Below, piece by piece: positions 4,087 to 33,164 of a stretch of DNA of 34,789 bases (position 1 is the stretch's first letter; the number at the start of each line of letters is the position of its first letter). Source of the DNA: Candidatus Aminicenantota bacterium (GTDB taxonomy: Bacteria; Acidobacteriota; Aminicenantia; JAMOAD01); assembly GCA_027067555.1 (NCBI GenBank), contig JAMOVU010000103.1:1-34789 (forward strand). Reading direction: 5' to 3'. The notes under the pieces are model-generated. The model saw only the letters and a program-made list of their open reading frames with translations. It was not told the DNA's origin and made no database searches. The position numbers and the translations under genes were made by a program.

Positions 4087-4105
4087 TTAAAATAAGGAGG
4101 TAAAA

Positions 4106-4531
4106 ATGATAATTGGCTATACTACTGGGGTTTTTGATTTATTCCATATCGGGCATTTAAATCTTTTGAAGAATGCTAAAGGTATGTGCGATAAATTGAT
4201 AGTTGGAGTAACAACTGATGAGCTCATGATTAAATATAAAAAGAAAAAGGCGGTAATCCCTTTTGAGGAAAGAATTGAGATTATTAGAAATATAAAGTAT
4301 GTAGATGCCGCTATTCCTCAGGAAACAATGGATAAATTTGAGGCATGGAAGAAGCTTAAATTTGATTTGATGTTTGTAGGAGATGATTGGTATCAAACGG
4401 AGAAATGGGAAAAATTCGAAGAGGAGTTTAAAAGAGTAGGTGTTAGAATTATATACTTCCCTTATACAAAGGGAACTTCTTCAACATTGATTAATGAAGT
4501 TCTAAATAAGATAAGAAATGATGAATTATGA
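4106..4531 (+). CDS. tagD: Glycerol-3-phosphate cytidylyltransferase-like protein
   Basis: Small (141 aa) nucleotidyltransferase of the TagD/GCT type, which joins an alcohol phosphate (classically sn-glycerol 3-phosphate) to CTP to give CDP-alcohol. The sequence shows TGVFDLFHIGHLNLLKNA with the HxGH motif, the VGVTTDEL strand, a KKKKAVIPFEERIEIIRNI segment, FVGDDWY, and Y-T-K-G-T-S-S-T, which matches the RTxGISTT signature loop except that Arg is replaced by Tyr. The last motif distinguishes this group from many other HIGH-type transferases. The ATG has a strong SD (aaggagg, 8 bp upstream). The stop overlaps the start of the next gene, a CDP-glycerol transferase family member, by 14 bp, consistent with donor synthesis and use being coupled. 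The substrate could also be another polyol phosphate. Confidence 0.88.
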   Translation: MIIGYTTGVFDLFHIGHLNLLKNAKGMCDKLIVGVTTDELMIKYKKKKAVIPFEERIEIIRNIKYVDAAIPQETMDKFEAWKKLKFDLMFVGDDWYQTEKWEKFEEEFKRVGVRIIYFPYTKGTSSTLINEVLNKIRNDEL

Positions 4532-5783
4532 TGGTAAAGTTTTCAAAAGAATTAATTCGTTTTCTAAGAAGGTTAAAAAATTATTAACTGATTTTACCAA
4601 GATTTTTTTCTGGTTATTTTATTTATTTTCCAAATTTTTTCCCAAAGATGAAAATTTGTGGTTATTTGGGGCAGATAATAAAAACTCTTTTGAAGGAAAC
4701 TCAAAGTATCTTTTTTTGTATTTGCAGCAGCTGAAGCCAAAGGATATAAAATCTTTTTGGATTACAAATAATAAAAAACTTATTAGTGAGCTAAAGGAGA
4801 GGGGATACAGTGTATTGTATTATAGAAGTTTAAAAGGAGTATATTATTGCCTTAGGGCAAAGGTTTGGTTTTATAATCATTATTCTTCGGACATTTCTTT
4901 TTGGTTTTCAGGTGGTGCATTTAAAGTAAACCTATGGCATGGCACTCCGATAAAGAAAATAGCATGGGATTTTAAGAAAGGGAATATTATTAGATACCCT
5001 AAAAATATTTTAAAAAAATTAATCAATAGGATTATATATCCCCCGATTTTTCAAAAACCTGATTTAATACTTTCCACAAGTAAAAGAGCAGCGGAAAATT
5101 TTAAAACTGCCTTTAAACTCACCGATAAACAGATTATTATTTCAGGCAATCCTCGTAATGATATTTTTTTTCAAGATATAGAAGGCTTTGATATTAATTG
5201 CGATTCTCTTTATAATAAGTTGGAATTATTAAGAAAAACAAATAAAATAATTTTTTATATGCCTACTTACAGAGAGAAAACATCAAAGAAATTTTATAAT
5301 TATTTTGCTTTTGATAGACTGGAAAGATTCCTTGAAAAACACAATCTAATCTTTATTATAAAACCTCATCCTTGGGATGTATTAGGGGCCTTTGATAAGG
5401 TTAAGAACAGAAGGAGAATTTATTTTGTCAGCAAAAATAAAGATCCATATCCGATTTTAAAATTTACGGATATATTGATAACCGATTATTCTTCTGTGTT
5501 TATAGATTTTTTATTGCTCAATCGCTTTATAGTTTTTTTCCCATATGATATAAATGAGTACCAGAAAAATGAGAGAGAATTTTATTATGATTATGAAAAA
5601 ATTACACCGGGGAAAAAGGTGATGAATTATAATGAATTGGAGCAAGTATTGTTAGAATATTTAGAAGGAGAAGATAATTATGTAATGAAAAGAAAAGAAT
5701 CTCTTTCTTTCTTTTTTGATGTCAGTGGAATATCTTCACCCCATATTTATAATAAGATAAAAGGTCTTCTGAAAAATGAGTGA
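4518..5783 (+). CDS. CDP-glycerol glycerophosphotransferase family protein (TagB/TagF-like)
   Basis: 421 aa, Glyphos_transf family (PF04464 type), which transfers glycerol phosphate or a related polyol phosphate from the CDP-activated donor to a lipid-linked acceptor at the inner face of the membrane. Recognisable landmarks are the N-terminal ENLWLFGADN and NSKYLFLYL strand-helix, VNLWHGTPIKKIAWD (the WHGTxxK motif with a catalytic-type His), LILSTSKRAAENF, ISGNPRNDIFF, IFYMPTYRE, IIKPHPW (family His), LITDYSSVFIDFLLL and FYYDYEKITPG. Residues ~22-42 are hydrophobic/amphipathic and may anchor it. It overlaps tagD by 14 bp and the flippase by 8 bp, so the three are almost certainly translated from one message. 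A TagF polymerase is usually longer, so single-unit transfer (TagB-like) or a short polymerase are both possible. Confidence 0.88.
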   Translation: MMNYDGKVFKRINSFSKKVKKLLTDFTKIFFWLFYLFSKFFPKDENLWLFGADNKNSFEGNSKYLFLYLQQLKPKDIKSFWITNNKKLISELKERGYSVLYYRSLKGVYYCLRAKVWFYNHYSSDISFWFSGGAFKVNLWHGTPIKKIAWDFKKGNIIRYPKNILKKLINRIIYPPIFQKPDLILSTSKRAAENFKTAFKLTDKQIIISGNPRNDIFFQDIEGFDINCDSLYNKLELLRKTNKIIFYMPTYREKTSKKFYNYFAFDRLERFLEKHNLIFIIKPHPWDVLGAFDKVKNRRRIYFVSKNKDPYPILKFTDILITDYSSVFIDFLLLNRFIVFFPYDINEYQKNEREFYYDYEKITPGKKVMNYNELEQVLLEYLEGEDNYVMKRKESLSFFFDVSGISSPHIYNKIKGLLKNE

Positions 5784-7083
5784 TTTTCTGATTATATTTA
5801 AAAGAATTTTTGCTGCAAAAAAGAGAGATATTAAAATAATATTTAAAAATATTTTTGCAATATCCACAGTAAGATTTTTTGATTATTTGCTTCCACTACT
5901 TACGATACCTTATATAGTAAGGATAATAGGTGTTGAAAAATTCGGAGTAATTTCTGTTGCAAGAGCATACATAACCTTTTTTCTCGTTTTTGTTACCTTT
6001 GGATTTAATTTTTCTGGCACGAAATTTATTTCTTCTAATAGGCATAGGAAAAAGGAAATTAGTATAGAGACTTTTAATGTTATTTTTATAAAATTGTTTT
6101 TTGCATTTATAAGTTTTATTATAATTTTGATTTCAATTAAGTTTGTATCAAAGTTCAATAAGGAAGCTATTGTGTATCTTTTTACTTCCATAAACCTTTT
6201 TGGGGAAGCATTGTTTCCTGTCTGGTTTTTTCAAGGGCTTGAAAAAATGGATTATATTACAAAAATTACCATACCTATAAGGAGCTTTTTTACACTGTTA
6301 ATCTTTGTTTTTGTAAGAAAGCAAAGCGATTATATTTTAATCCCTCTTTTTTATGCTTTAGGTCCTTTTTTTGCCGGGATAGTTTCTATTTATATAATTC
6401 TTAAAGTGTTTAAATTAAGGTATTTTAAGTTTAGCTTAAAAAGGTTAAAAACATCCATTAAGAAGGGATTTAGTTTTTTCTTATCGAGGATTTCTTGGAG
6501 TCTTGTGACATCTATTGATGTTATAGTACTTGGTTTTGCTGCCGGAGACTATTTTGCAGGCCTGTTTTCATCGGCAAGGAAGATAGTAAAACAAATTTCT
6601 CTTGTTATTCAGCCTCTTTATTCCTCGATTTATCCATACTTTAGCAATAGAGAGCAAAGGGAAAAAGAGAAGAATATTAATATATTTTTTAAAATAATAT
6701 TTTTTCTTTCTACCTCCGGGATCCTGCTTATCATAATCCTGACTTTTATTTTTGCAAAGGATATTGTCATAATTTTGTTAGGTAAAAAATTCGTAGAGGT
6801 TATTCCAATTTTAAAATTATTTTTAGTTGTTCCATTTATTTATCATTTGAATGCAATTGTTGGAACAGCTGTTTTAATACCTCAGGGATATGAAAAAATA
6901 TTTAATAATAGTGTTATTATTGCATCAATTATTCATATCCTATTATTATTTGGCTTATTGGTTTTTAATGTATTAACTATTAAGAATCTTGTAATTCTGA
7001 TAATCTTTACATATTTAATTATTTTTGTATTAAGATTTGGAACGATTCTAAAATATAGAAATTTAAGAAAGTGGATTTTGTAA
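5776..7083 (+). CDS. Polysaccharide flippase (Wzx/MOP superfamily)
   Basis: 435 aa, polytopic, about 12 predicted TM segments, no long soluble domain. The N-terminus has the typical family pattern with RFFDYLLPLLTIPYIVRIIGVEKFG, close to the 'lxxPyitrvLGpexyG' start of oligosaccharide-repeat-unit exporters, followed by 'ARAYITFFLVFVTFGFN' and the internal 'GFSFFLSRISWSLVTSIDVIVLG' helix with an Asp in the membrane (a signature of the second half of the fold). The protein would move lipid-linked glycan across the cytoplasmic membrane. The ATG overlaps the end of the upstream transferase (ATGAGTGA), indicating translational coupling; no SD of its own. It ends 1 bp from the convergent stop of the next gene, with no terminator hairpin seen between them. 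Confidence 0.88.
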   Translation: MSDFLIIFKRIFAAKKRDIKIIFKNIFAISTVRFFDYLLPLLTIPYIVRIIGVEKFGVISVARAYITFFLVFVTFGFNFSGTKFISSNRHRKKEISIETFNVIFIKLFFAFISFIIILISIKFVSKFNKEAIVYLFTSINLFGEALFPVWFFQGLEKMDYITKITIPIRSFFTLLIFVFVRKQSDYILIPLFYALGPFFAGIVSIYIILKVFKLRYFKFSLKRLKTSIKKGFSFFLSRISWSLVTSIDVIVLGFAAGDYFAGLFSSARKIVKQISLVIQPLYSSIYPYFSNREQREKEKNINIFFKIIFFLSTSGILLIIILTFIFAKDIVIILLGKKFVEVIPILKLFLVVPFIYHLNAIVGTAVLIPQGYEKIFNNSVIIASIIHILLLFGLLVFNVLTIKNLVILIIFTYLIIFVLRFGTILKYRNLRKWIL

Positions 7084-7084
7084 T

Positions 7085-8323
7085 TTACTTTTTAATTAAG
7101 TAGTTAAAAATCCTTTCAGATGAATTTTCATCATTATAAGTAAAAGCTAATTTCAGTATTTCTTTTCTTTTAGTTTCGTAAATGTCTTTTTTAAGGATAT
7201 TAACAATAGCCTCTTCCAATTCATTTTGGGTAAATGCTTTTGGTCCTGGAGTCATTTCTTCATAATCAAATTGAAATTCCCTATCCATTTGAGAATATTC
7301 TTTTTTGTCAAAGGGAAAGAAAATAATTGGCTTTCCTAAGAAGAGATAATCCGTATAAATAGAGGAGTAGTCAGTGATTAGAAGATCGCTTAATGGTAAC
7401 ATTGGATATATATCTTTTGAAGAATCATAAAACAAAATATTTTCAAATGACTTTTTCTCTTTGATTTTTGTATCAGGGTGTAATTTGAGCACGAAAATAA
7501 AATTTTTGCTTGCGGCAAAATCATTTAATTTTTTTAAATTAAAGTAATCTAAAAAATTTCTCTGGCTATCTCTGAAAGTAGGCATATATATTATTACTTT
7601 GTATTTTTTTTCTCTCATTTTTTTTACATAATTTATGGTCTCAATATCAGTGTTAATAAATTGCAGTTTTCCGTATTTTTTACTGTTTTTTAAAATATCA
7701 TTTCTCGGATATCCTGTTTCTATTATATTTTTACATTTAAATGCTTTTTTAAAAAGCTTATTTGTATAAAAAGAGGATGTTGAGATTACCAAGTAAAAGG
7801 TTTGTTCATATCCGATAAGTTTAAAAAATAATCTTGCTCTTTTGCTAAGCTTTAGAAACTTTGGCTCATCTAAATATATTCTTTTAAAAGCAACACCATG
7901 CCATAACTGGACTCTCTTAGCACCATAAAAAAGGAAATACTTTAAGTTTGAAATCCACATCATATTGTCAACTATAAGATATTCTGCCCGTAAGCTATTC
8001 CAAATTGCCTTAAAAGATGGATATAAGTAAACTGACAAATTGCTTTTTTTGAGAAGATTATAAGTTAAGGAGTCTTCGGTAATAAAAAAGAATGAGAATT
8101 GATTTTTGTTTTCATTAAGGTCTTGAGAGTAAAAGTAAAGGTAAAGATATTTAACATTATCCAAAAACAATCCTTTATCTCTTCCTATGAAGGAAAAAGA
8201 TTTTTTTTTCTTGGGAATTATTTTAGCCAAAGGAACTATAATTATCCAGCCTATTATTATATAAAAAAAATTATTAATTCTTTTTTTAATTTTACTATAT
8301 AATTTTCGGGAACTAATTTTCAT
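7085..8323 (-). CDS. Second CDP-glycerol glycerophosphotransferase family protein
   Basis: Paralogue of the 4518-5783 protein with the same landmarks in order: SFSFIGRDKG, NVKYLYLYFYSQ, VQLWHGVAFKRIYLDE (WHG motif), YLVISTSSFYTNKLF, IETGYPRNDIL, IIYMPTFRD, VLKLHPD, LLITDYSSIYTDYLFLG, REFQFDYEEMTPG. The open frame extends to 8497, but that start would overlap the divergent glycosyltransferase and add a poorly conserved 58-residue extension. ATG 8323 (MKISSRKLYSK) gives 412 aa, close to the paralogue, and leaves a 43 bp divergent spacer. Residues ~18-32 (FFYIIIGWIIIVPLA) form a possible membrane anchor. It is the only minus-strand gene within the cluster. Two such enzymes suggest either priming plus polymerising steps or two different phosphate decorations (inference). 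Confidence 0.85.
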   Translation of the reverse strand: MKISSRKLYSKIKKRINNFFYIIIGWIIIVPLAKIIPKKKKSFSFIGRDKGLFLDNVKYLYLYFYSQDLNENKNQFSFFFITEDSLTYNLLKKSNLSVYLYPSFKAIWNSLRAEYLIVDNMMWISNLKYFLFYGAKRVQLWHGVAFKRIYLDEPKFLKLSKRARLFFKLIGYEQTFYLVISTSSFYTNKLFKKAFKCKNIIETGYPRNDILKNSKKYGKLQFINTDIETINYVKKMREKKYKVIIYMPTFRDSQRNFLDYFNLKKLNDFAASKNFIFVLKLHPDTKIKEKKSFENILFYDSSKDIYPMLPLSDLLITDYSSIYTDYLFLGKPIIFFPFDKKEYSQMDREFQFDYEEMTPGPKAFTQNELEEAIVNILKKDIYETKRKEILKLAFTYNDENSSERIFNYLIKK

Positions 8324-8346
8324 CTTATTAGAAAAAGTATTATAAT
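8317..8346 (+). promoter_or_regulatory. Possible divergent promoter region
   Basis: The 43 bp between the two divergent starts (8324-8366) contains TATAAT at 8341-8346 on the plus strand with TTTTCA 18 bp upstream. The overlapping ATTATA (8339-8344) reads as TATAAT on the minus strand. Both neighbouring genes could therefore be driven from here. The -35 match is poor and the stretch is nearly all A/T, so chance matches are likely. Confidence 0.35.
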
Positions 8347-8366
8347 TTATTATTATTAAAAAGTAA

Positions 8367-9356
8367 ATGAATATATTGATGACAAACAAAATAGCAACAA
8401 TAATAGTAACCTTTAATAGGATTAACCTTCTTTTAAAGGTTTTGGAAGCGGTTGAAAGGGAGGTTGAATCAAAAGGGATTTTGATTATTGTTGACAATAA
8501 TTCCTCTGATGGGACAGAGGAGGAATTGGTGAGAGTAGGGTATGTTTTTGATGAGTTTTCCCCTTATGAAGAGGATACAGGAAAAATTTCAATAAACATT
8601 AAAGAGAATTTGAAAATTATATATCTTAAGTTAGATAAAAACATTGGAGGCTCCGGCGGTTTTTATTATGGAGTTAAATTAGCTCTTAAAGAGGAGTGGG
8701 GCTGGCTCTGGTTTCTTGATGATGATGCAAAGCCTCAACCCGGATGTTTAAAAGAGCTTTTAAAGTATGCAAAAAAATCTGATGTGCTTGTGCCTTTGAG
8801 AATTTCAAACCCTATTGATGTGAGGGAGTTTCCGGCAATAAGGTTTAATATGAGAAATCCCTTTTTGAAAGAGGTAAGGGATGTGGGCTTTTATAAAAAT
8901 TATGAAAAGATAGAGGATTTACCAGAAACAATAGAGGTTGAGGATTTTTCATTTGAAGGACCTTTAATTAAAAGAAGGGTGATTGAAGAGATGGGACCTC
9001 CGAAAAAAGATATTTTTATATCCGGTGATGATACTGATTATGCTCTGAGAATATTAAGAAAATACGGAAAAAAACATCTTTTGATAACCCGTGCAATAAT
9101 TGAAAGAATAAGTCCTTCGAAAAAAAGTGAAATAATTCCTCTGTGGAAAGAATACTACCTGAAAAGAAACTATTATTATACACATTATACCTACGGGGAG
9201 AATGTTTTTGTTAAAATAAAGCCTTTTTTCCTATTTCTGTTTTCAATAATAAAGAATACTTTAAAAATGAGAATGAGTGTTGAAAAATTTAAAGTCAATC
9301 TTTATGCTTTTTGGGATTCAATTAAAAAAAAGATGCCAATAAGATATAAGCCGTAG
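8367..9356 (+). CDS. GlfT2-like family 2 glycosyltransferase (second copy)
   Basis: 329 aa GT-A glycosyltransferase of the same group as the 1108 gene. Shared landmarks: KIATIIVTFNRI, GILIIVDNNSSDGTEE, KNIGGSGGFYYG, the metal-binding WFLDDDAKP, FSFEGPLIKRRV, and FISGDDTDYALR near the C-terminal third. The C-terminus (VEKFKVNLYAFWDSIKKK.. to RYKP) is of special interest because a diverged copy of exactly this tail lies at 10849-10938. Start: ATG 8367 or ATG 8379 (MTNKIATII); no SD is visible at either. It would act on the cytoplasmic side on a lipid-linked acceptor. The donor sugar is unknown; galactofuranose and rhamnose are the usual candidates for the group. Confidence 0.85.
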   Translation: MNILMTNKIATIIVTFNRINLLLKVLEAVEREVESKGILIIVDNNSSDGTEEELVRVGYVFDEFSPYEEDTGKISINIKENLKIIYLKLDKNIGGSGGFYYGVKLALKEEWGWLWFLDDDAKPQPGCLKELLKYAKKSDVLVPLRISNPIDVREFPAIRFNMRNPFLKEVRDVGFYKNYEKIEDLPETIEVEDFSFEGPLIKRRVIEEMGPPKKDIFISGDDTDYALRILRKYGKKHLLITRAIIERISPSKKSEIIPLWKEYYLKRNYYYTHYTYGENVFVKIKPFFLFLFSIIKNTLKMRMSVEKFKVNLYAFWDSIKKKMPIRYKP

Positions 9357-15227: not shown

Positions 15228-16265
15228 ATGTCTGAAAAAATGAGGGCAATTTGGAAAAGGAGGCCGGGGAGAGGAATAGAAGTTGGAGAAGCTGATATTC
15301 CCATTATTAAGGATGATGAAGTTTTAATTAAGGTTAAAAAGAGGGCCATTTGCGGTACTGATCTTCATATCTATCAATGGAATGAGTGGTCCCAGAACAG
15401 AATCAAACCTCCGGTGATTATAGGTCATGAATTTTACGGGGAAATTGTTGAGATTGGTAAAAATGTGAAGGAGTTTAAAGTAGGAGAGCTTGTAACAGCT
15501 GAAATGCATGTTGTTTGCAATCATTGTTATCTTTGCAGAACAGGAAAGGCTCATCTTTGCGAAAATGTTGTTATCTTAGGTGTTGATGCAAATGGAGCTT
15601 TTGCAGACTATGTTGCGGTTCCGGCTTTAAATCTATGGAGAGTAAAAAAAGATATACCGGAAGAGTATTTTGCCATTTACGATCCTTTCGGAAATGCTGT
15701 ACACACCGTTTTTGAAGGGGATATGCCCACAAAAACAGTGTTAATTACAGGAGCAGGACCCATAGGGGCAATGGCAGCGGGTATTGCCAAAGCAGCGGGA
15801 GCATCACTCGTTATAGTTTCAGAACCGAATGAATACAGAAGAGACCTTGCCAAAAAGATGGGAGCCGATGTTGTTGTAAATCCGTTTGAGGAAAATCTTG
15901 TTGAAATTGTAATGGAGCTAACAGATGGCGAAGGTGTTGACAATGTACTTGAAATGTCAGGTGTGGCACCTGCCCTTTTGGAAGGGCTTAAAGCTATAAA
16001 AAAGGGTGGTATTTTGGTCCTTCTTGGAATTTTTAACAAAGATGTTACCGTTGATTTTAATGAACTTATAATTTTTAAAGGGATTAAAATTAAGGGTGTT
16101 AACGGAAGAAAGATGTATGATACCTGGTATAGAATGGACGGACTTTTAAGGTCCGGTAAAATTGATCTTTCTCCAATTATAACCCACAGATTCCCCATGG
16201 AAGAGATAGAAAAGGGGCTACTTTTAATGGAAGAGGGTAAGGCAGGGAAAGTAATTTTAACTTAA
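15228..16265 (+). CDS. tdh: L-threonine 3-dehydrogenase
   Basis: 345 aa zinc-dependent medium-chain dehydrogenase that oxidises L-threonine to L-2-amino-3-oxobutyrate with NAD+, in the cytoplasm. Catalytic-zinc residues Cys42 (ICGTDLHIYQWNEWSQ, the Tdh-specific stretch) and His67/Glu68 (GHEF). Structural-zinc cysteines are 97, 100, 103 and 111 (CNHCYLCRTGKAHLC). The NAD-binding Rossmann loop is ITGAGPIGAMA at ~169. Family length is ~340-350, so complete. The N-terminus (MSEKMRAIWK) and core resemble the archaeal/thermophile-type Tdh more than I would expect by chance, but related sequences occur across bacteria. kbl follows 15 bp downstream, and the product is unstable, which fits tight coupling of the two enzymes. 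Confidence 0.95.
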   Translation: MSEKMRAIWKRRPGRGIEVGEADIPIIKDDEVLIKVKKRAICGTDLHIYQWNEWSQNRIKPPVIIGHEFYGEIVEIGKNVKEFKVGELVTAEMHVVCNHCYLCRTGKAHLCENVVILGVDANGAFADYVAVPALNLWRVKKDIPEEYFAIYDPFGNAVHTVFEGDMPTKTVLITGAGPIGAMAAGIAKAAGASLVIVSEPNEYRRDLAKKMGADVVVNPFEENLVEIVMELTDGEGVDNVLEMSGVAPALLEGLKAIKKGGILVLLGIFNKDVTVDFNELIIFKGIKIKGVNGRKMYDTWYRMDGLLRSGKIDLSPIITHRFPMEEIEKGLLLMEEGKAGKVILT

Positions 16266-16280: not shown

Positions 16281-17513
16281 ATGCCACTTGACAGATTTAA
16301 AAAAGTATTGGAAGGAGAATTAAATGAACTCAGGGAAAAAGGTACGGCAAAAGGAAAAGAATTAATCATAACAAAGGTCAAAAAACCCGAGGGTGATAGA
16401 GGACCCAGATATTATTTAAAAGGATTCGGAGAAAAAGAATTCATAAGGATGAACTCAAATTCCTATCTGGGAATGGCACTGAGAGAGGATATAATTGAAG
16501 TCGAAGAAAAAGCAGCAAGAGAGTTCGGAGTGGGCCCCGGTGCCGTAAGATTTATAAACGGAACATACAAAGCCCACAGAGATCTTGAAAAAAAGCTTGC
16601 TAATTTTCACGGAAGAGAGGATGCAATTATATTCAGTGCTGCCTATGCTACGATGATAGGTACCCTTACCGCTCTTATTTCAAAGGATACCATAGTTATA
16701 AGTGATGAGCTTAACCATAATTGTATTATTAATGCCATAAGACTCTCAAGACCTACCGATAAAGCTATCTATAAACATCTTGATATGAAAGAGATGGAGG
16801 AGCAAATAAAATCCGCAATCGGAAGAGCCAAAAGAATAGTGCTTGTTACGGATGGAATCTTCAGTATGCGTGGAGATTATGCTCCTTTGAATGAAATTAT
16901 GGATATTGTTAAAAAATATGATGATAAGTTTGAGGAGAACATAATTGTTGTTGCAGATGATTCCCATGGTGTCGGAGCTTTCGGAAAGACAGGCAGAGGA
17001 ACTGAAGAATACACCGGCGGAAGGGTTGATGTTTTGATTGGTACATTGGGTAAGGCTTTCGGAGTTAACGGAGGGTATGTTGTTTCGGATGAAACAATTA
17101 CAACATATCTCAGGGAAAAGGCAATTACCTATGTTTACTCAAACCCTATTACCGTTGCAGAGGCTGCAACCGCTTTAAAGGTCATAGAATTTCTTGATAG
17201 TGAAAACGGAAGAAAGAGACTTGAATATCTGAGGGAGCTCACAAAGAGGTTTGAATCAGGACTTAAAAGTATGGGATATGAGATAATAGAGAGTGAACAT
17301 CCTATTGTACCTTTGATGGTAAGGGATACAAAGAGGACATCGGATATTGTAAAATTCCTTCTTGAAAACGGAGTGCTTGCAACAGGGCTTAATTATCCTG
17401 TTGTTCCCAAGGGAGATGAGGAGATAAGATTTCAGATTAATGCTGATCATACTCCATCCGATATTGATTATGTACTTGATGTCCTGAAAAGGTACAAAGA
17501 GCAAAACGGTTAA
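16281..17513 (+). CDS. kbl: 2-amino-3-ketobutyrate CoA ligase (glycine C-acetyltransferase)
   Basis: 410 aa PLP enzyme of the alpha-oxoamine synthase family that splits 2-amino-3-oxobutyrate with CoA into glycine and acetyl-CoA. Landmarks: NSNSYLGMALR, VRFINGTYKAHRDLEKKLA (Kbl-type), DELNHNCIINAIRL, VADDSHGVGAFGKTGRGTEE (Asp226 and His229 contact PLP), the Schiff-base Lys258 in GTLGKAFGVNGGYV, and the C-terminal PVVPKGDEEIRFQINADHT. The match to the Kbl branch rather than BioF or HemA rests on these plus the tdh neighbour. A strong SD (aaaggagg) precedes the ATG. It is the second gene of the tdh operon and is followed after 47 bp by the GH20 fusion gene with its own SD. Confidence 0.93.
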   Translation: MPLDRFKKVLEGELNELREKGTAKGKELIITKVKKPEGDRGPRYYLKGFGEKEFIRMNSNSYLGMALREDIIEVEEKAAREFGVGPGAVRFINGTYKAHRDLEKKLANFHGREDAIIFSAAYATMIGTLTALISKDTIVISDELNHNCIINAIRLSRPTDKAIYKHLDMKEMEEQIKSAIGRAKRIVLVTDGIFSMRGDYAPLNEIMDIVKKYDDKFEENIIVVADDSHGVGAFGKTGRGTEEYTGGRVDVLIGTLGKAFGVNGGYVVSDETITTYLREKAITYVYSNPITVAEAATALKVIEFLDSENGRKRLEYLRELTKRFESGLKSMGYEIIESEHPIVPLMVRDTKRTSDIVKFLLENGVLATGLNYPVVPKGDEEIRFQINADHTPSDIDYVLDVLKRYKEQNG

Positions 17514-17560
17514 ATATATTAAAATTTTAAAGAACATATAAAAAACAAAGGAGTTTAAAA

Positions 17561-20077
17561 ATGAAAAAGGGATTATTCTATCTTACTGTTTTTATCCTTT
17601 TATCCTCTCTTTTACTTTCAAACAATTTGCCTTTAATGCCTTATCCGCAGAATATAAAAGTTGACAATGGCAAATTCTATCTTAAAGACACATTTAAAGT
17701 CTCAGTAAAAGGACCTTACAGCGAAAGGGTTGAGTTTGGTAAAAAAAATCTTTTGAATTTGATTTCCGAAAGAAGCGGAAGATATATTCATGAAGATGAA
17801 AACGGTGAAATACCACTTAATATAATTTATAAAAAAAGGATAAAGCTTTCTCCGAAAATGGATGAATCATACGAGCTTTCCGTATCCGGGAGCGAAATTA
17901 ATCTTAAAGCTAACACAGATATTGGTATTTTAAGGGGATTATCAACACTTTATCAGCTTCTCTCCTATGATGAAAAGGGTTTTTTCTTTAATAATGTCAA
18001 TATTAAGGATTGGTCGAGATTTTACTGGAGAGGGCTTTTAATAGACACATCAAGACACTTTATGCCTGTAAAGGTTATATTAAGAGTTCTTGATACAATG
18101 GCACTTGTTAAAATGAATGTTTTGCATTTTCATTTAAGTGATGATCAGGGATTCAGACTTGAATGTAAGACCTTTCCAAAACTTCATCTTACAGCTTCGG
18201 ATGGTAATTATTATACCCAGGAGGAGATGAGAAAAATAATAAGATATGCAAATCTAAGGGGTATAAGGATTATGCCTGAATTTGATATTCCCGGACACAC
18301 TTATAGTTGGATAGTTGCCTATCCTGAGCTGGCTTCTTTGCCGGGAGATTATAAAATGAGAAGGGATTACGGGGTATTTAATCCTGTTATGGACCCTTCA
18401 AACAAAAAGGTTTATAAGTTTTTAAAAAAATTCTTTAAAGAGATGAGTAAGCTTTTTCCGGATGAGTACATCCATATAGGAGGGGATGAAGTAAACGGAG
18501 TTCAATGGAAAAAGAGCAAAAGAATTAGGAAATTTATGAAAAAGCATAAAATAAAAACACTTGAAGAGCTTCAGGTTTACTTTAACAGGAAGATTCTCAA
18601 AATATTAAAGAAGTATCACAAGAAGATGATAGGTTGGGATGAGATTTATGGTCCCGGGCTTCCCAAGGATGTTGTAATTCACTCGTGGAGAGGTAAAAAA
18701 GCCTTATTCAAAGGTGCAAAAGAGGGCTATTTTACTATTCTTTCAAATGGGTATTACATAGATTTACTTCAGCCAACTTCCTATCATTATACAAATGATC
18801 CTATCCCTAAAAATTCTGATTTATCAGATGAGGAGAAAGCAAGAATTTTGGGCGGAGAAGCAACAATGTGGGCTGAGCTTGTTAACAAAAGAATTGTTGA
18901 TTCAAGAATATGGCCAAGAACAGCAGCGATAGCTGAAAGATTATGGTCATCACAAAAATTAAAGGATTTGAAATTTATGTATGAAAGATTATGGAAAGTT
19001 TCTCCGATGCTTGAAAGGGTAGGTTCCTGCCATATTAAGAATCAAAATGCTTTGATGAGAAATTTAGTTGATTCGGAGGATATAAATTTGATAAGGGAGT
19101 TTTTAGGTATAACTGAACCTATTATGGTTTACAAAAGGCATTGGTATACAAAGTATAATGTTTTCTATCCTCTGACAAGAACAGTGGATGCTGCGGTACC
19201 TGACCCAAAAGAGGCTGTGGAATTTAAGTTTTTGGTTAAAGATTTCATTAAAAGCGGGGATCAAAATCTTTTAAGCAGAATTATTGAAAAATTAAACCAA
19301 TACATTAAAATCTCCGAAAGCATTAAAAAGTTAGCTGAGAAAAAACCTGCTCTTCAAGAGATAATACCTTTGGCTGATAATATTATAAATCTTTCAAAGA
19401 TGGCACTTTTATCACTTGAATACGAAAAGGAGGAAAAAGAGTTTACCCCTGAGCTTGATATGAAAAGGGATACTCTTTTTACAAAGGCAAAGGATGTTGT
19501 CGCAGAGATGAGAATTGCCATATATCCGGCTCTTAAAAATCTTGCCTTTTACAATGAGAAAGACAAAGAGCTTGGAGTTTTGGAAACCAATATGGGTAAA
19601 ATGATAATGAGATTTTATGAAAAAGAGGCTCCTTTACATGTTGCTCAGTTTAAAGAGCTTATAAAATCAGGTTTTTACAATGGAAAAACTTTTTACAGAG
19701 TTGTGAAAGGGCATGTGATTCAGGCCGGAGATAAAGAGGGAACAAATTACAAGACAGTAAAGGCTGAATTTAACAAACATCCTCATCTTGTGGGGACTGT
19801 CGGAATGGCAAGGGATAAAGATCCTGACAGTGGCTCCACAGAGTTTTACATCTGCCTTGTGCCAAGCCCCCACCTTGATGGTAAATACACTGTATTCGGA
19901 CAGCTTATTGAAGGGTATGATGTACTTGAAAAAATAGGCAATGTTGAGGTTAAAAAACAATTTTTAGGAGAAGACAAAAAAATCGCATTTCACACTCCGG
20001 TAAAGCCTGTGGTAATAAAAAAAGCATATCTTGTAAAGGGGAACTTTATTCCTCTTTTTGAAAGGTATGAAAATTGA
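17561..20077 (+). CDS. Exported GH20 beta-N-acetylhexosaminidase fused to a cyclophilin-type prolyl isomerase
   Basis: 838 aa in one uninterrupted frame. Residues 1-20 are a signal peptide. Residues ~24-145 are the GH20 N-terminal domain (LPLMPYPQNIKVDNGKF). Residues ~152-465 are the catalytic barrel with YWRGLLIDTSRHFMPV, VLHFHLSDDQGFRLE, PEFDIPGHTYSW, the HIGGDEVNG motif (Asp309-Glu310 catalytic pair), GWDEI and GGEATMWAE. A ~200-residue helical stretch follows. Residues 671-830 are a complete cyclophilin domain: VLETNMGKMIMRFYEKEAP, FYRVVKGHVIQAGD (Arg713 and Gln721 match the catalytic Arg/Gln), STEFYICL (Phe762) and HLDGKYTVFGQLIEG. GH20 enzymes remove terminal GlcNAc/GalNAc by substrate-assisted catalysis; cyclophilins isomerise Xaa-Pro bonds. 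The ATG has an AAAGGAG SD. The combination on one exported chain is unusual. Confidence 0.92.
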   Translation: MKKGLFYLTVFILLSSLLLSNNLPLMPYPQNIKVDNGKFYLKDTFKVSVKGPYSERVEFGKKNLLNLISERSGRYIHEDENGEIPLNIIYKKRIKLSPKMDESYELSVSGSEINLKANTDIGILRGLSTLYQLLSYDEKGFFFNNVNIKDWSRFYWRGLLIDTSRHFMPVKVILRVLDTMALVKMNVLHFHLSDDQGFRLECKTFPKLHLTASDGNYYTQEEMRKIIRYANLRGIRIMPEFDIPGHTYSWIVAYPELASLPGDYKMRRDYGVFNPVMDPSNKKVYKFLKKFFKEMSKLFPDEYIHIGGDEVNGVQWKKSKRIRKFMKKHKIKTLEELQVYFNRKILKILKKYHKKMIGWDEIYGPGLPKDVVIHSWRGKKALFKGAKEGYFTILSNGYYIDLLQPTSYHYTNDPIPKNSDLSDEEKARILGGEATMWAELVNKRIVDSRIWPRTAAIAERLWSSQKLKDLKFMYERLWKVSPMLERVGSCHIKNQNALMRNLVDSEDINLIREFLGITEPIMVYKRHWYTKYNVFYPLTRTVDAAVPDPKEAVEFKFLVKDFIKSGDQNLLSRIIEKLNQYIKISESIKKLAEKKPALQEIIPLADNIINLSKMALLSLEYEKEEKEFTPELDMKRDTLFTKAKDVVAEMRIAIYPALKNLAFYNEKDKELGVLETNMGKMIMRFYEKEAPLHVAQFKELIKSGFYNGKTFYRVVKGHVIQAGDKEGTNYKTVKAEFNKHPHLVGTVGMARDKDPDSGSTEFYICLVPSPHLDGKYTVFGQLIEGYDVLEKIGNVEVKKQFLGEDKKIAFHTPVKPVVIKKAYLVKGNFIPLFERYEN

Positions 20078-24685: not shown

Positions 24686-26251
24686 TCAATCAAGTACCTG
24701 TCTTACAACATCAATAACAGTTCCGTCAACCCATTTTATTGCTGCGACTATTTTTTCTCCCAATTTAGGCTTTTTAGGTTTTCCTCCGCAAATTTTCTCG
24801 GCCTCCTCTTTCAGCTCTTCAATACTTCTTATCGGAAGATTGGTTCCTTTTACCGCATTTATAAGATCCTTTCTTCGCGGATTAATTGCTATTCCTCTTT
24901 CCGTAACGATTACATCTATGAGTTCACCGGGCCCCACAAGTGTTGTTACTTCGTCAACTATAACAGGTATTCTGTCCCTGAAAAGGGGAATGGGTAATAT
25001 AACTGTTTTTCCGTAAAGACAGTTCTGCCATCCACCTATTCCGTGTAAAAGCCTTCCGTCAGAATGGGTTACAACATTGGCATTAAAATTCACATCAACC
25101 TCTGTTGCTCCCAAGACAACAACATCAACCATTGAAGCGAAGTTTCCCTTTCCATGGAAATTATAGCTTGTAAAGGGGCTTGTATCCTGATGATTGGGAT
25201 TTTCCCTCATTGATCTAACGCCTTCAAGGTCAAAGGTTTGACCATCAAGAATATAGTCAGTAAGTCCCTCTTCAAGCATTTCCGTAAGATACTTTGTTGA
25301 ACCTCCCCTTACAAATCTGGCCTTTATATTATTCTTTTTCATTATATCTCTCAAAAACACTGCAAATGCAAGTGAAGTTCCTCCTGCACCTGCCTGAAAA
25401 GAGAAACCATTCTTGACAATTCCAGCTTCAAGGGCAAACTGTGCTGCCATCTCAGCAATTAAGAGTCTATCGGGACTTTTTGTAAGCTGGGTTGTTCCCG
25501 AGACTATTTTTGAAGGATCTCCTATTGATTCTACCTCAACAACATAGTCAACATAATTTCCCTGAATCTGCCAGGGAATGCAAGGGAATGGGACCAAATT
25601 GTCTGTTACAACAATGACATAATCCGCATACTGAGAATCAGCAAGTGCAAACCCCAAAAGCCCGCATGCGGCAGGACCGTAAAGTCCATTTGCATTACCG
25701 AAAGGATCAGCACAGGGAGCTGAAATAACAGCTATATCTATGTGAACCTCACCATCCTGTACAGCCTGATATCTTCCTCCGTGGGACCTCAAAATTGCAG
25801 TGCCTTTCATCTTGCCTCTTGAGGTAAAGTCTCCCAATGGTCCGTTCATACTTCCTTCTATGTGATGTATGACACCACTTTCAAGGTGTTTTATTATGGG
25901 AGCGTGAATTGGAAATGATGCACTCGGAAACCATCTGAGATTTTTTACACCTAACTCAGCAGCTGCATCAAAAACCATATTTGCAACATAATCACCATTT
26001 CTGAGGTGATGATGTGTGGAAATTGTCATTCCATCCCTTATCCCGGCTTTTTTAAGGGCTTCCTTTATACTTTCGACCCTTTTATCTCCATCCCAGGGAT
26101 AATCAATACATGATCTTATGGGCGGGGCCGCTTTTCTACCTGTTGGTTTATGTTTATTAACTCCTTTGAAAGGAATATGTTTTTCTCCGTTAATTTCAAC
26201 CAAAACCTCTCTTCCTGCTGCATTTATTTCTGTTTTGTAATTATACTTCAT
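24686..26251 (-). CDS. citF: Citrate (or citramalate) lyase alpha subunit
   Basis: 521 aa, full family length. The alpha subunit exchanges the acetyl group on the acyl-carrier subunit for citrate (acetyl-ACP:citrate ACP transferase) before the beta subunit cleaves it. Clear CitF landmarks: IPFKGVNKHKPTGRKAAPPI, MTISTHHHLRNGDYV, HIEGSMNGPLGDFTSRG, RSHGGRYQAVQDGEVHIDIA, CADPFGNANGLYGPAACG, FSFQAGAGGTSLAF, RENPNHQDTSPFTSYNFHGKG and ERGIAINPRR. The ATG overlaps the last bases of the citDE gene by 4 bp (ATGA) and has a GGAGGG SD inside it. The same protein family serves citramalate lyase in glutamate fermentation via methylaspartate, so the substrate is not settled. No citC ligase, citG or citX gene is in the window. 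Confidence 0.93.
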   Translation of the reverse strand: MKYNYKTEINAAGREVLVEINGEKHIPFKGVNKHKPTGRKAAPPIRSCIDYPWDGDKRVESIKEALKKAGIRDGMTISTHHHLRNGDYVANMVFDAAAELGVKNLRWFPSASFPIHAPIIKHLESGVIHHIEGSMNGPLGDFTSRGKMKGTAILRSHGGRYQAVQDGEVHIDIAVISAPCADPFGNANGLYGPAACGLLGFALADSQYADYVIVVTDNLVPFPCIPWQIQGNYVDYVVEVESIGDPSKIVSGTTQLTKSPDRLLIAEMAAQFALEAGIVKNGFSFQAGAGGTSLAFAVFLRDIMKKNNIKARFVRGGSTKYLTEMLEEGLTDYILDGQTFDLEGVRSMRENPNHQDTSPFTSYNFHGKGNFASMVDVVVLGATEVDVNFNANVVTHSDGRLLHGIGGWQNCLYGKTVILPIPLFRDRIPVIVDEVTTLVGPGELIDVIVTERGIAINPRRKDLINAVKGTNLPIRSIEELKEEAEKICGGKPKKPKLGEKIVAAIKWVDGTVIDVVRQVLD

Positions 26252-27465
26252 TGCTCATCCCTCCAATTTTCATTTATTAATCCCTCTTTTAAAGCAAGAT
26301 TTATTGTTCTCAAAGCTCTTTTTACAACGGGCGGGTCAATCATTTTGCTTCCCAAGGATACCACTCCAAGTCCCTTTCTTTCGGCTTCTTCAAAAGCAAG
26401 AACTATTTTCTTAGCTTTTTCAATCTCTTTTTCCGTGGGAGCAAAAGCTTCATGAATTACTCTTATTTGTCTCGGGTGAATACAACCTTTACCATCAAAA
26501 CCAAGAGATTTTGCCTCTATTACACTTTCTCTGAGGCCTTCCATATCATTTACATCGGAAAATACTGTGTCAATGGCCTGAATACCAGCAGCTTTTGCTG
26601 CATTTACAAGCATGGATCTTGCAAAAAAGCTCTCTCTACCTTCATTGGTTCTCTGGGTTCCAATATCAGCAGTATAATCTTCAAGCCCGATTGCAAGTGC
26701 GACTATTCTTTTTGATGCTTTTGCTATTGAGTAGGCATTCATGACTCCTGCCGCACTTTCTATTATAGGCATATAGTACGGATCAAATGTATCCGGATTT
26801 TCTTTTAAAATTTCATCAACTTTTCTATCTATTTCTTTTATTTGCTCCGGAAATTCAACTTTTGGAATCAAAATCAAATCAACTTTTTGGGGGATTACCT
26901 CTTCAAGATCCTCATATCCCAAAGGAAGTTGATTTATTCTTACCATTCTTTCAGCACCTTTAAAATCAATTGATCTTAGAGCATTTCTCACCAGAATTCT
27001 TGCTGCATCTTTGGCAGGAGGTGCAACAGAATCTTCAAGGTCAAGAATTAAACCGTCAGGCTTGTGTATTGCTGCATTAAGAAAAAATTTAGGTTGATCT
27101 CCCGGAAGATAGAGTCTTGATCTTCTGAATCTATCCCTTTCACTTCTTTTAAATTCATATTCCCAGGAGGGAAGATACTTTTTCCCTTTATCAAGTCCCA
27201 ATCTTTTAATCGCAGCTTCTATTCTTGCCATAATTACAAAGGGTAGGGCGCCTGTGTCTATCATTTCTATCTCAACATCCTCAATCCCGAAGAATTTCAT
27301 CATATCAAAAATCAGATCTTTTATAGAATCTCCGTAGAGAACTTTAACTTTGCTCTCAAGATTAAGGTTAACTCCCTTTATCCCATCACCAACTTTAAGA
27401 GAGACCCAGCAATCAGACCTTATTTTATCGCCCTTGTTTCCTGCTTCGGAAGTTTTTATGCTCAT
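26248..27465 (-). CDS. citE: Citrate lyase acyl carrier protein-beta subunit fusion (CitD-CitE)
   Basis: 405 aa carrying two normally separate subunits. Residues 1-~97 are CitD (gamma, acyl carrier): AGNKGDKIRSDCWVS aligns with the 'AGtlESgDv' prosthetic-group segment and puts Ser17 at the attachment serine, then YGDSIKDLIFDMMKFFGIED, DTGALPFVIMARIEAAI. Residues ~110-400 are CitE (HpcH/HpaI aldolase fold), which cleaves citryl-ACP into acetyl-ACP and oxaloacetate: RSRLYLPGDQPKFFLNAA, GLILDLEDSVAP, LILIPKVEFPEQI, PIIESAAGVMNAYSIA (Mg2+-binding Glu), IGLEDYTADIGTQRT (Asp ligand) and GFDGKGCIHPRQI. No stop or frameshift separates the parts. ATG has a strong AAAGGAGG SD. It is the first gene of the operon with citF. 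Confidence 0.92.
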   Translation of the reverse strand: MSIKTSEAGNKGDKIRSDCWVSLKVGDGIKGVNLNLESKVKVLYGDSIKDLIFDMMKFFGIEDVEIEMIDTGALPFVIMARIEAAIKRLGLDKGKKYLPSWEYEFKRSERDRFRRSRLYLPGDQPKFFLNAAIHKPDGLILDLEDSVAPPAKDAARILVRNALRSIDFKGAERMVRINQLPLGYEDLEEVIPQKVDLILIPKVEFPEQIKEIDRKVDEILKENPDTFDPYYMPIIESAAGVMNAYSIAKASKRIVALAIGLEDYTADIGTQRTNEGRESFFARSMLVNAAKAAGIQAIDTVFSDVNDMEGLRESVIEAKSLGFDGKGCIHPRQIRVIHEAFAPTEKEIEKAKKIVLAFEEAERKGLGVVSLGSKMIDPPVVKRALRTINLALKEGLINENWRDEQ

Positions 27466-29413: not shown

Positions 29414-31936
29414 TTATTTAACTTTACCAAGGTGTTTTGCAAACCATGTGGAGAATTTTTTAAAAGTAGCTTTGTCTTTTACAGCTCCTCCGAGACCATG
29501 TTTGCCTTCGGGATCCAGAAATAGATCAACAAGACTCTCTTTACCGGCTTCAAGAAAAGCTCTGTACATATTTACAGTGTCCTGATAGAGAACATTGGGA
29601 TCAACCATTCCGTGTACCATTAAAATAGGATGTTTAAGGTTTTTTGCAAGAGGGATAAGTGAGTATTTTCTCATAGTGAGCTTTCCTCTTACGGATTTTC
29701 CTATTGTAGCTCCCGTGTACCAGGAGTTATAATTTTCCCACTGAGTTGGTGGTGCAGCTGATATTCCGCACGCAAATGTATCAGGGCTTGTGAGCATAGT
29801 GTAAAGTGTCTGAAAGCCTCCGAAACTCCATCCGTGAAGCCCAAGCCTATTTATATCAACTCCGAAACCTGTTTTTATGTGTTTTACAAGATCTTCAAGA
29901 TCCTCAGTTTGAGGTTTTCCCGGATGTTGCCAGTTTGCCTCATTGAACTTTTTTCCGTATCCTGATTGACCTCTCGGATCAATATCTATTGTCACATAGC
30001 CGTATTTCAAAGCCATAAACATCTGGAAAAAGTATGATAATCTGCTGAAATTATCAACCTCAATTGTGTGCCTTCTGCCCAATGGACCTCCGTAAAGATA
30101 GATAATAGCCGGTCTTTTGTCGGTTGGTTTCCAGCCTATTGGTTTGAAAATCATTCCGTGAATAGTGTCACCGTATCTATTTTTATATGTGAAAAGCTCA
30201 GGTTTAAGTATATTTATTTTTGCAAGCTCGGGACTATGGCTCTTTGTTAAGACTTTTTTATTCCTGTTTTTAATATTTATAAGATAAAGTTCTGGAGCAT
30301 TGTACCAATTGCCGTAAACCGAAGCAAGCCATTTTCCGTCCTTTCTCACTGCTGTTTCTCTGTGAGCTCCGTTTAAAAGCCCTATGTTTTTCATCTGTCC
30401 GGTTTTTATATTGACTCTGTAAACACCGTACATTGCAGGGTTCTGTTTATCGGAAATTATGTAAAGATATTTTCCATCTTTTGAAAAATCTATTACAGGA
30501 AAGCTCTCGAATTTCCCTTTTATAAGTTCTTGTTTTTGTTTTGTTTTCAAATCAAAAATAAATGGTTGTCTGAATCCCTCCTTGTTGAATAAAATGGCAA
30601 CAAGGTGTTTACTGTCAGGCGTAAACCTGATGTTATTGTAATAATTGGATTTGTATCCTATTGATTCTTTCATCTTGAAAAATTCAAGGGGCTTTTTGTC
30701 TCTGATGTTTCCAATCCATATTTTAAGATCTCCTTTTTCCCTTTCCCATGTCATAAATGCAAAATACTGCCCATCTTTACTCCATCTGATTTCACTGAAT
30801 TCATACCATATATCGCCTCCGGGAATTTTAAAAATAGGCTCAGGCTGTTTACCATAATTTGTTCTTTCTATTTTCCTTAAATAAAATCTGTATTCAGGCT
30901 CATTTCTTTTCATCTCAGTGGTCTGTCTTTTTACTGTGAAAGATTTTGCAAATCTATCCTTATAACTCATTATTTCAACATCCCTGTATGCAGGTTTTCC
31001 TTTCTGTCGTGATGCAATAATTATCATCCACCTGTCATTGGGGGATATGTATGTTCTTTCTATTTTAAAACCCTTTTTATCATTCTTTCCTTTTTCCAGT
31101 TTATGGTTTATCTGTAGAATGTATGATGAGCCAAACATAACCTTGTAAACACCATTACCTTTTCTGTAAAAATAGCCTTTTCCATCCGAGGTGTATCTTA
31201 TAAGATGCTCTTTTTCATCTGTCATTGTAAGTCTTTTTATTGTGTTTGTTTTGGGAAAATACCTGTAAAGATCTTCTCTGTATTCAAAAATAAGCTCCTC
31301 TGCCTTTTTTGACCAAGCATAATTGGAAACCCCGGGATAAAGATCAGATCTTTTGACCTTTTCCTTCTTCTTTTTTTCCTTGAGTTTATCCCTCAGTTCC
31401 CATAGTTCAAGCTCCTTTTTCTGCTTTTTAATTTTTTCCTTTTCCTTTTTATTTCCTCTCTTTTCCGATTCCTTTTCCTTTTTTTCAAGTTCTTTTTTTA
31501 GCTCCTCAATCTCCTTTTTTTCAAATTTTGAAAGATCAACTTTCTTTCCTTCCAAGAAGGCCTTTTGAAGATAGTATTTTTCCTGAAGAATTTGCTCCTC
31601 TTTTCTCTTTTGTTTTGCTTTTTCTATGAATTTTTTATACTCTTCAGGAGTTTCAAATTTTTTCATTATTTCAAGGGAGGTTGCTCTTTTCAGCTTTTTT
31701 GTTTTTAAATCATATATGTATAAATCATAGCCTAACTCATCATAAGGATTCCATAAAAAGGAAAGGTATCTTCCCTTTTCAGAAAATTTTATAAGCCTTG
31801 CTCTTTTACCGAGAGGGGACCTTACTTTGTAAAAATCCTCAATACTAAGATTTTTCAAATCAATTTTTTGGGCTACTATAATTGATGAAATAAAAAGGAT
31901 AATTAAGGTGAAAATCAAAAAATTCCTTTTTCTCAT
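29414..31936 (-). CDS. Exported S9 (dipeptidyl-peptidase IV-like) serine peptidase with a charged helical insert
   Basis: 840 aa. Signal peptide 1-22 (MRKRNFLIFTLIILFISSII). Beta-propeller domain ~25-560, hydrolase domain ~580-840. Catalytic triad: Ser704 in HGWSFGGFQ, Asp779 in VHGMVDPN, His813 in PEGKHGLGG; oxyanion/Tyr loop YLYGGPLGRRH at ~619. The family releases dipeptides or other short peptides from the N-terminus or cleaves oligopeptides after uptake into the periplasm or at the cell surface. Unusual: residues ~92-197, inserted in the first propeller blade, are almost all Lys/Glu/Arg/Leu and predicted to form a long coiled coil (KKEIEELKKELEKKEKESEK). SD CGGAGG upstream of ATG. First gene of a likely three-gene unit with the dehydrogenase and membrane protein. 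Confidence 0.92.
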   Translation of the reverse strand: MRKRNFLIFTLIILFISSIIVAQKIDLKNLSIEDFYKVRSPLGKRARLIKFSEKGRYLSFLWNPYDELGYDLYIYDLKTKKLKRATSLEIMKKFETPEEYKKFIEKAKQKRKEEQILQEKYYLQKAFLEGKKVDLSKFEKKEIEELKKELEKKEKESEKRGNKKEKEKIKKQKKELELWELRDKLKEKKKKEKVKRSDLYPGVSNYAWSKKAEELIFEYREDLYRYFPKTNTIKRLTMTDEKEHLIRYTSDGKGYFYRKGNGVYKVMFGSSYILQINHKLEKGKNDKKGFKIERTYISPNDRWMIIIASRQKGKPAYRDVEIMSYKDRFAKSFTVKRQTTEMKRNEPEYRFYLRKIERTNYGKQPEPIFKIPGGDIWYEFSEIRWSKDGQYFAFMTWEREKGDLKIWIGNIRDKKPLEFFKMKESIGYKSNYYNNIRFTPDSKHLVAILFNKEGFRQPFIFDLKTKQKQELIKGKFESFPVIDFSKDGKYLYIISDKQNPAMYGVYRVNIKTGQMKNIGLLNGAHRETAVRKDGKWLASVYGNWYNAPELYLINIKNRNKKVLTKSHSPELAKINILKPELFTYKNRYGDTIHGMIFKPIGWKPTDKRPAIIYLYGGPLGRRHTIEVDNFSRLSYFFQMFMALKYGYVTIDIDPRGQSGYGKKFNEANWQHPGKPQTEDLEDLVKHIKTGFGVDINRLGLHGWSFGGFQTLYTMLTSPDTFACGISAAPPTQWENYNSWYTGATIGKSVRGKLTMRKYSLIPLAKNLKHPILMVHGMVDPNVLYQDTVNMYRAFLEAGKESLVDLFLDPEGKHGLGGAVKDKATFKKFSTWFAKHLGKVK

Positions 31937-32003: not shown

Positions 32004-33044
32004 TTAAATCCTAAAAACAGAGTGAATTGCATCAATTGCTATGCTGACATCATTATCATCAATATCATTGTGAGTTACGAATCTTACCAATTTATCATTA
32101 AAGGGTAGGGCTAAAACCTTTTTCTCCTTTAACTTTTCCAAGAACTCAAAAGAGCTCATTGTTTTAAGGTGTATCATAACAAAGTTTGTCTTAACCCTTT
32201 CAAGGTCAACCTGTAGCTCTTTTATATCCGAAATGCCTTCAGCAAGTCTCTTTGCTCTTTTATGATCTTCATCGAGCCTTTTTGTCATAACTTTTATTGA
32301 AACAATCCCGGCAGCAGCAATAACTCCTGCCTGTCTCATCCCACCCCCGAGATATTTTCTTATTATCCTTGCTTCACTAATAAATTCTTTGCCTCCAACT
32401 AATATCGAACCTACAGGTGCTGCAAGTCCTTTGGAAAGACAGAACATTACAGAATCAAAATGCTTTGTTATTTCCTTTACATCAACTCCGAGTGCAGTTG
32501 CCGCATTAAAAACTCTTGCTCCGTCAAGATGAAAGTGCAAGTTGTGTTTTTTTGCCACTTTAGAAACTTCTTTTATGTAATCGGTTGGAATTGGAACCCC
32601 TCCCCAATAATTATGCGTGTTTTCAAGTGCTATTGCCTTTGTTTCAGGAATGTGATCCCTAAGGCTTTTATGAATATTTTCCTCTATCTTTTCAATTGGT
32701 ATTATTCCGTGATCAGAAGGAAGTGGTCTTGGAAGAGAGCCTGCTATTCTTGAAACATTACCGGCTTCATAATTATAGATGTGTGAATGCTCTTCCAGAA
32801 TGATCTCTTTACCTTCTCCTGCTGCAAGTTTTACTGCTATCGTATTTCCCATTGTGCCTGATGGAACGAAAAGAGCTGCCTCTTTTCCCAAGGTTTCTGC
32901 TGCAAGCTCTTCAAGCTCTTTTACAGTCGGATCATCTCCCAGAACATCATCTCCAACCTCAGCTTCATACATTGCCTTTCTCATCTCTTCGGTGGGTCTT
33001 GTAACAGTATCACTTCTGAAATCCGAGTATCCTTTGTATGACAT
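32004..33044 (-). CDS. ltaE: Low-specificity L-threonine aldolase
   Basis: 346 aa PLP enzyme that cleaves L-threonine (and allo-threonine) to glycine and acetaldehyde, in the cytoplasm. Landmarks: FRSDTVTRPTEEMRKAM, DDVLGDDPTVKELEE, PSGTMGNTIAVKL, EEHSHIYNYEAG, IALENTHNYWGG, FHLDGARVFNAA and the Schiff-base Lys205 in CLSKGLAAPVGS. The open frame runs 32 codons further upstream, but ATG 33044 is the real start: it has a strong AAAGGAGG SD 6 bp away and gives the conserved family N-terminus. It offers a CoA-independent alternative to the Tdh/Kbl route encoded 16 kb away. It has its own promoter and ends 67 bp before the S9 gene's start. Confidence 0.95.
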   Translation of the reverse strand: MSYKGYSDFRSDTVTRPTEEMRKAMYEAEVGDDVLGDDPTVKELEELAAETLGKEAALFVPSGTMGNTIAVKLAAGEGKEIILEEHSHIYNYEAGNVSRIAGSLPRPLPSDHGIIPIEKIEENIHKSLRDHIPETKAIALENTHNYWGGVPIPTDYIKEVSKVAKKHNLHFHLDGARVFNAATALGVDVKEITKHFDSVMFCLSKGLAAPVGSILVGGKEFISEARIIRKYLGGGMRQAGVIAAAGIVSIKVMTKRLDEDHKRAKRLAEGISDIKELQVDLERVKTNFVMIHLKTMSSFEFLEKLKEKKVLALPFNDKLVRFVTHNDIDDNDVSIAIDAIHSVFRI

Positions 33045-33071
33045 TTTATCCTCCTTTATAATTAATTTGAA

Positions 33072-33100
33072 ATTATAGGATATTATCTGAAAATGTTCAA
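33072..33100 (-). promoter_or_regulatory. Promoter of the threonine aldolase gene
   Basis: Minus strand: TTGAAC (33100-33095), 17 bp spacer, TATAAT (33077-33072). The predicted start near 33066 gives a ~22 nt leader with the AAAGGAGG SD. It is back to back with the lipoprotein promoter, the two -35 boxes being 8 bp apart. Confidence 0.65.
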
Positions 33101-33108
33101 ATTTTATA

Positions 33109-33137: not shown

Positions 33138-33164
33138 CATTTAACTAAAATAAGGAGGAGGCAA

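Follow-up and report, generated by a model that had tools for sequence, protein, structure and literature searches.

The window, a stretch of 34,789 nucleotides, carries one open reading frame that joins a predicted FjGH20-type beta-N-acetylhexosaminidase almost directly to a cyclophilin of a rare subtype (Table 1). Our favoured reading, to which we give a probability of roughly 0.45, is that the cyclophilin would be a prolyl isomerase or prolyl-peptide binder tethered in the periplasm. The hexosaminidase would provide both its export and its anchorage, and the two sites would be coupled catalytically only loosely or not at all. This reading and its rivals partly overlap. Prolyl isomerases are usually viewed as general folding aids, and here the genome's only cyclophilin shares a chain with a glycosidase. 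Coupling of the two activities would make the protein a concrete case of prolyl isomerisation aiding glycoprotein breakdown; without such coupling, the protein would plainly illustrate how a housekeeping module switches carriers.

The original prediction had placed a GH20 enzyme and a cyclophilin in a single frame of an exported protein. This was borne out: the coordinates and frame were exact, the 838-residue frame had no internal stop, the N-terminus was signal-like, and Pfam assigned GH20 domain 2, the GH20 catalytic domain and a cyclophilin domain to the one chain. No stop or frameshift lay between the domains, and the open fused frame also occurred in three other assemblies (G001, G002 and G004). 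Because four separate MAG assemblies carry the fused frame, an assembly artefact or frameshift was ruled out. The source genome of the window (G000) measured 2.82 Mb in 202 contigs and was 97.7% complete; named relatives place it in Candidatus Aminicenantes (Acidobacteriota).

Table 1. Positions in the window of the fused reading frame, its parts and its conserved neighbours.
Feature	Position	Strand	Basis
tdh-like zinc dehydrogenase, neighbour, conserved in genus only	15228..16265	+	Pfam; synteny
kbl-like aminotransferase-fold enzyme, neighbour, conserved in genus only	16281..17513	+	Pfam; synteny
AAGGAG, ribosome-binding-site-like, 7 bases 5' of ATG	17548..17553	+	sequence
Fused frame: exported FjGH20-type hexosaminidase and cyclophilin, 838 aa	17561..20077	+	Pfam; 6yhh alignment; same architecture in G001, G002 and G004
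Signal-peptide-like hydrophobic N-terminus, residues 1-20	17561..17620	+	hydropathy
GH20 N-terminal domain (GH20 domain 2), residues 24-151	17630..18013	+	Pfam PF02838, PF14845
GH20 catalytic TIM barrel, residues 154-464	18020..18952	+	PF00728 E 5.6e-97; Foldseek 6yhh
Catalytic pair Asp309-Glu310 within HIGGDE (305-310); Glu310 = FjGH20 Glu317	18485..18490	+	6yhh alignment; PMC7426924
FjGH20-type C-terminal helix-bundle domain, residues ~481-661	19001..19543	+	6yhh alignment; PMC7426924; AlphaFold/Foldseek; end point of free homologs
Tyr524 = FjGH20 Tyr538 (sugar-pocket lining), loop poorly predicted	19130..19132	+	alignment; PMC7426924; Y-x-R-H conserved in 18/20 homologs
Cyclophilin domain with subtype-specific C-terminal extension, residues ~670-826	19568..20038	+	PF00160 at 674-807 (E 1.9e-38); alignment; AlphaFold strands
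Cyclophilin active-site strand RVVKGHVIQ: Arg713 (CypA R55), His718 (F60), Val719 (M61), Gln721 (Q63)	19697..19723	+	alignment
Tyr763 = CypA F113 (base of proline pocket)	19847..19849	+	alignment; PMC2911226

The N-terminal part of the protein is, judged by sequence, a complete FjGH20-type beta-N-acetylhexosaminidase with its catalytic residues in place. The closest solved structure was FjGH20, a chitobiase of Flavobacterium johnsoniae (6yhh), whose chain residues 6-671 aligned with query residues 22-661 (E 7.7e-166). A Foldseek search with the AlphaFold model also returned 6yhh as the top match (TM 0.88 by target length). The window protein and FjGH20 share the same three domains: an N-terminal domain (PF02838 and PF14845, above cut-off in the window protein), a TIM barrel with the HxGGDE motif, and a C-terminal helix bundle. 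In FjGH20 this last domain (504-673) is an eight-helix bundle in which a loop puts Tyr538 into the sugar pocket (PMC7426924). The equivalent pocket-lining tyrosine, Tyr524, was present in the 6yhh alignment, on a loop with a pLDDT below 50 in the model.

The stretch of about 200 residues between barrel and cyclophilin had been described as a helical region joining the domains, and structure prediction of it had been proposed. The AlphaFold helices and the Foldseek match corresponded to the C-terminal domain of 6yhh, and the end-to-end alignment with that domain ruled out a helical linker. Because the stretch aligned with the 6yhh bundle and is common to free GH20 relatives, it is the enzyme's own C-terminal domain. 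Free homologs of the FjGH20 type in the Acidobacteriota and Bacteroidota samples stopped at about query residue 661, where the cyclophilin starts, and their chains closed on a helix, for example ...LIVEPVEKLIVSTTNK*. The fused proteins pass from the last GH20 helix into the first cyclophilin strand within a few to about fifteen residues. Between helix bundle and cyclophilin there is almost no linker; the FjGH20 chain, in contrast, lacks a cyclophilin and ends at the point where that of the window protein begins.

The fusion was the only PF00160 match in each of the four genomes that carry it. It is not the sole peptidyl-prolyl isomerase of the cell, which was ruled out by the presence of FKBPs (2 matches) and parvulins (3 matches) in the window's genome. 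A lone cyclophilin joined in cis would suit the suggestion that it speeds the folding of its attached hexosaminidase, a helper carried by its own client. However, an attached cyclophilin is missing from many FjGH20-type homologs of both Acidobacteriota and Bacteroidota (more than 80 in the sample of 396 Acidobacteriota genomes), and proline made up 4.3-4.4% of the fused GH20s, no more than in their free counterparts (4.5-6.6%). Moreover, the cyclophilin is C-terminal and so emerges last, and its subtype is also attached to other, unrelated proteins. With unfused GH20 homologs both widespread and a little higher in proline, this part of the original prediction was weakened, and we consider it the weakest of the readings and quite improbable.

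The cyclophilin domain scored 132.7 bits against PF00160 (cut-off 21.7) and 71.7 bits against the NCBIfam PpiA equivalog NF008151, below the curated cut-off of 308. It shares with E. coli PpiA and bacterial cyclophilins (2mvz, 1clh) and with human CypA the cyclophilin fold by sequence and the equivalents of catalytic Arg55 and Gln63 (Arg713 and Gln721), which are invariant across the subtype. Unlike PpiA and CypA, it is fused, has a His60/Tyr113 pocket and bears a C-terminal extension with a conserved H-x-P motif. Alignment with CypA showed that R55, Q63 and L122 were kept and that the other site positions differed (F60H, M61V, F113Y, W121H and H126Y; His718, Val719, Tyr763, His771 and Tyr776 in the window protein), with Leu772 the only residue retained from the canonical pocket of Phe60, Met61, Phe113, Leu122 and His126. 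Val61 and Tyr126 also occurred among the compared ordinary bacterial cyclophilins, and the unusual changes were His60 and Tyr113. The claim that catalytic residues are in place therefore stood for the GH20 part and for Arg713 and Gln721, but not for Phe762, which adjoins the F113 column; the F113 equivalent is Tyr763.

Isomerase activity of the fused cyclophilin is plausible, because the Arg and Gln are kept and a His at the Trp121 position is compatible with activity in human cyclophilins (PMC2911226). The departures of the proline pocket from CypA (F60H, M61V, F113Y and H126Y) mean that this activity could be weak or lost. A domain that had lost it would serve for binding or docking. Consistent with such a loss, the base (F113Y) and one wall (F60H) of the pocket are altered in nearly all subtype members; in human cyclophilins Phe113 forms the base and Phe60 one wall of the proline pocket, and both define the S1' pocket (PMC2911226). 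However, Arg and Gln at the catalytic positions never vary within the subtype, the Tyr and His replacements are conservative and match the pocket in size, and free exported members have been kept in several phyla, all of which leaves a non-catalytic role with a small probability.

The His60/Tyr113 cyclophilins are a rare, well-supported subtype, forming a clade of 38 sequences in the cyclophilin tree (support 100/99). Every row of this clade had His60 and Tyr113, where most of the compared ordinary bacterial cyclophilins had Phe at both positions; the contigs were scanned with the patterns GHVIQAG and SG..E.YIC, so the sample is biased toward these motifs. When 399 genomes of the phylum of Psychrosphaera were searched by profile, without such patterns, two more members emerged, both with His60 and one with Phe113. 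Outside the Aminicenantia fusions the subtype is usually free. The free exported members, from Thermoanaerobaculia, Holophagae, Rheinheimera, Shewanella, Psychrosphaera and some Aminicenantes, were 50-67% identical and shared the signature R-H-V-Q-A/G-Y-H-L-Y. They stand alone and have their own signal peptide or lipobox, whereas the fused copies have neither. Their neighbourhoods were varied, with no neighbour family common beyond close kin, and were dropped as a functional clue.

In other Aminicenantia the same subtype was fused to a RhaT-type symporter, a BNR_2 (sialidase-type) domain, both of these, a C69 peptidase or a glyoxalase-fold domain (L066, L067, L069, L071, L074, L070 and L073). 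These fusions share cyclophilin subtype and taxonomic class with the window protein but have unrelated partners, and most fall in a separate cyclophilin clade of 10 rows (support 100/100). In one 844-residue frame RhaT, the BNR_2 sialidase-type domain and the subtype cyclophilin form a single chain (L074, 3919-6453; the same as L040, 3087-5621, minus strand), and sister genomes have RhaT-cyclophilin or sialidase-cyclophilin chains instead. The cyclophilin was N-terminal to the C69 peptidase (L070, 5791-7673) and to the glyoxalase-fold domain (L073, 5857-7308), and the C69 peptidase gene of L052 and that of L083 each had an unfused cyclophilin gene a short way upstream, only a few genes off. 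A separate cyclophilin fusion, to HEAT-repeat proteins, occurred in another Aminicenantia family (L042, 1403-3079; L043, 2065-4017); there the cyclophilin is C-terminal and its active site is ordinary (Phe60/Phe113).

Exported or membrane partners so varied and unrelated are more readily explained by a portable module than by a component reserved for GH20. The subtype thus behaves as a detachable exported module, with the GH20 fusion as one of several attachments. Sequence comparison shows that a previously free exported cyclophilin was joined almost directly to the last GH20 helix, its own signal peptide being absent. In our favoured reading, the two domains would be active in the periplasm or on the cell surface. 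There the GH20 part would remove terminal beta-GlcNAc or beta-GalNAc, while the cyclophilin part, exported by GH20, would act as a tethered prolyl isomerase or prolyl-peptide binder on any exported proteins or glycopeptides nearby.

The partners also bear on a reading in which the two activities share a substrate: the cyclophilin would bind or isomerise Xaa-Pro bonds in mucin-like or glycosylated Pro/Thr-rich proteins, opening glycans or backbone to the hexosaminidase and to peptidases. We regard this as unlikely, though worth serious weight. Fusion of the same subtype to a BNR_2 sialidase-type domain and to RhaT speaks for it, and the two glycan-linked partner settings (GH20 and sialidase-type/RhaT) hint at coupling over convenience, against the favoured reading. 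However, the C69 peptidase and the glyoxalase-fold domain are also among the partners, and the neighbourhoods of the free relatives are mostly unshared. The near absence of a linker and a pTM of 0.87 for the AlphaFold model of the window protein would suit coupling and suggested a rigid inter-domain pose, but the model of the G004 ortholog, with a poorly modelled barrel, reached only 0.62. Because it fails to reproduce the model of the window protein, we make no claim for the relative pose. A bolder version, in which Aminicenantia attach the portable subtype to glycan-acting proteins (hexosaminidase, sialidase-type domain and sugar symporter), the altered pocket reads prolyl bonds near glycosylated residues, and one chain isomerises and deglycosylates the same glycoprotein, seems to us a long shot.

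The GH20-cyclophilin fusion was found in four MAGs, three of one genus (the window's genome, G001 and G002) and one of another genus in the same Aminicenantia family of Acidobacteriota (G004). It had been suggested that this domain pair is not an established architecture, and the architecture is unusual: no description was found in literature searches, and no fusion was found beyond the window's own family among 396 Acidobacteriota genomes, nor any among the strong matches listed from 396 Bacteroidota genomes, where a fusion of GH20 with a very dissimilar cyclophilin might escape. A further genome of the family (G003, 85% complete) had neither the fusion nor an FjGH20-type GH20, and only a cyclophilin in a 224-residue frame. 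The four fused GH20s formed one clade (support 96/98). In the cyclophilin tree the G004 copy was unplaced, and a clade of all four copies was not recovered but also not rejected (AU p 0.42). On these trees the simplest reading is one fusion event, in an ancestor common to at least two genera of the family; G004 may have undergone a second fusion or had a domain replaced.

Between the window protein and those of G001 and G002, identity was 88-91% in the cyclophilin and 87-88% in the GH20 barrel, compared with 50% in the N-terminal domain and 61% in the helix bundle. For the cyclophilin dN was about 0.08, with synonymous sites near saturation. Conserved like the barrel and far above the other two domains, the cyclophilin is under purifying selection. 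This bears on whether adjacent genes simply fused without functional meaning and the product was kept as harmless. The partners do vary by lineage, and in one genus (g5) RhaT and a BNR_2 sialidase-type gene adjoin the cyclophilin, the fusions joining such neighbours. However, the strong purifying selection on both domains, the retention in two genera and the status as sole cyclophilin leave a neutral fusion with little probability.

The gap of 47 bases between kbl and the fusion gene held no terminator-like site in our scan, and this short distance together with the good ribosome-binding-site-like sequence makes co-transcription of the two genes likely. The position of the fusion behind tdh-kbl, as originally noted, recurred in G001 and G002, where tdh and kbl flank the fusion (91-92% identical), with uvrD as well in G001. 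However, neither gene was found beside the fusion in G004, which has a sodium:sulfate-type symporter upstream instead. With no support beyond the genus, tdh-kbl was rejected as part of the system and placed outside its definition because of this absence; the neighbourhood of the fusion is a genus trait.

Near tdh-kbl the window also has, on the minus strand, genes for a prolyl-oligopeptidase-family peptidase (29414-31936) and a beta-eliminating lyase of threonine-aldolase fold (32004-33140), which together with tdh-kbl are a possible peptide/threonine catabolism cluster. Such a set would fit a shared glycoprotein substrate, but the absence of tdh-kbl beside the G004 fusion counts against this. 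Elsewhere in the window, one frame on the minus strand (26248-27465) encodes an HpcH/HpaI citrate-lyase beta-type protein with an N-terminal acyl-carrier domain (PF06857) and adjoins CitF (24686-26251). A surface-polymer gene cluster at 1072-8497 comprises a glycosyltransferase, an asparagine synthase, two CDP-glycerol glycerophosphotransferase-like proteins and a polysaccharide flippase.
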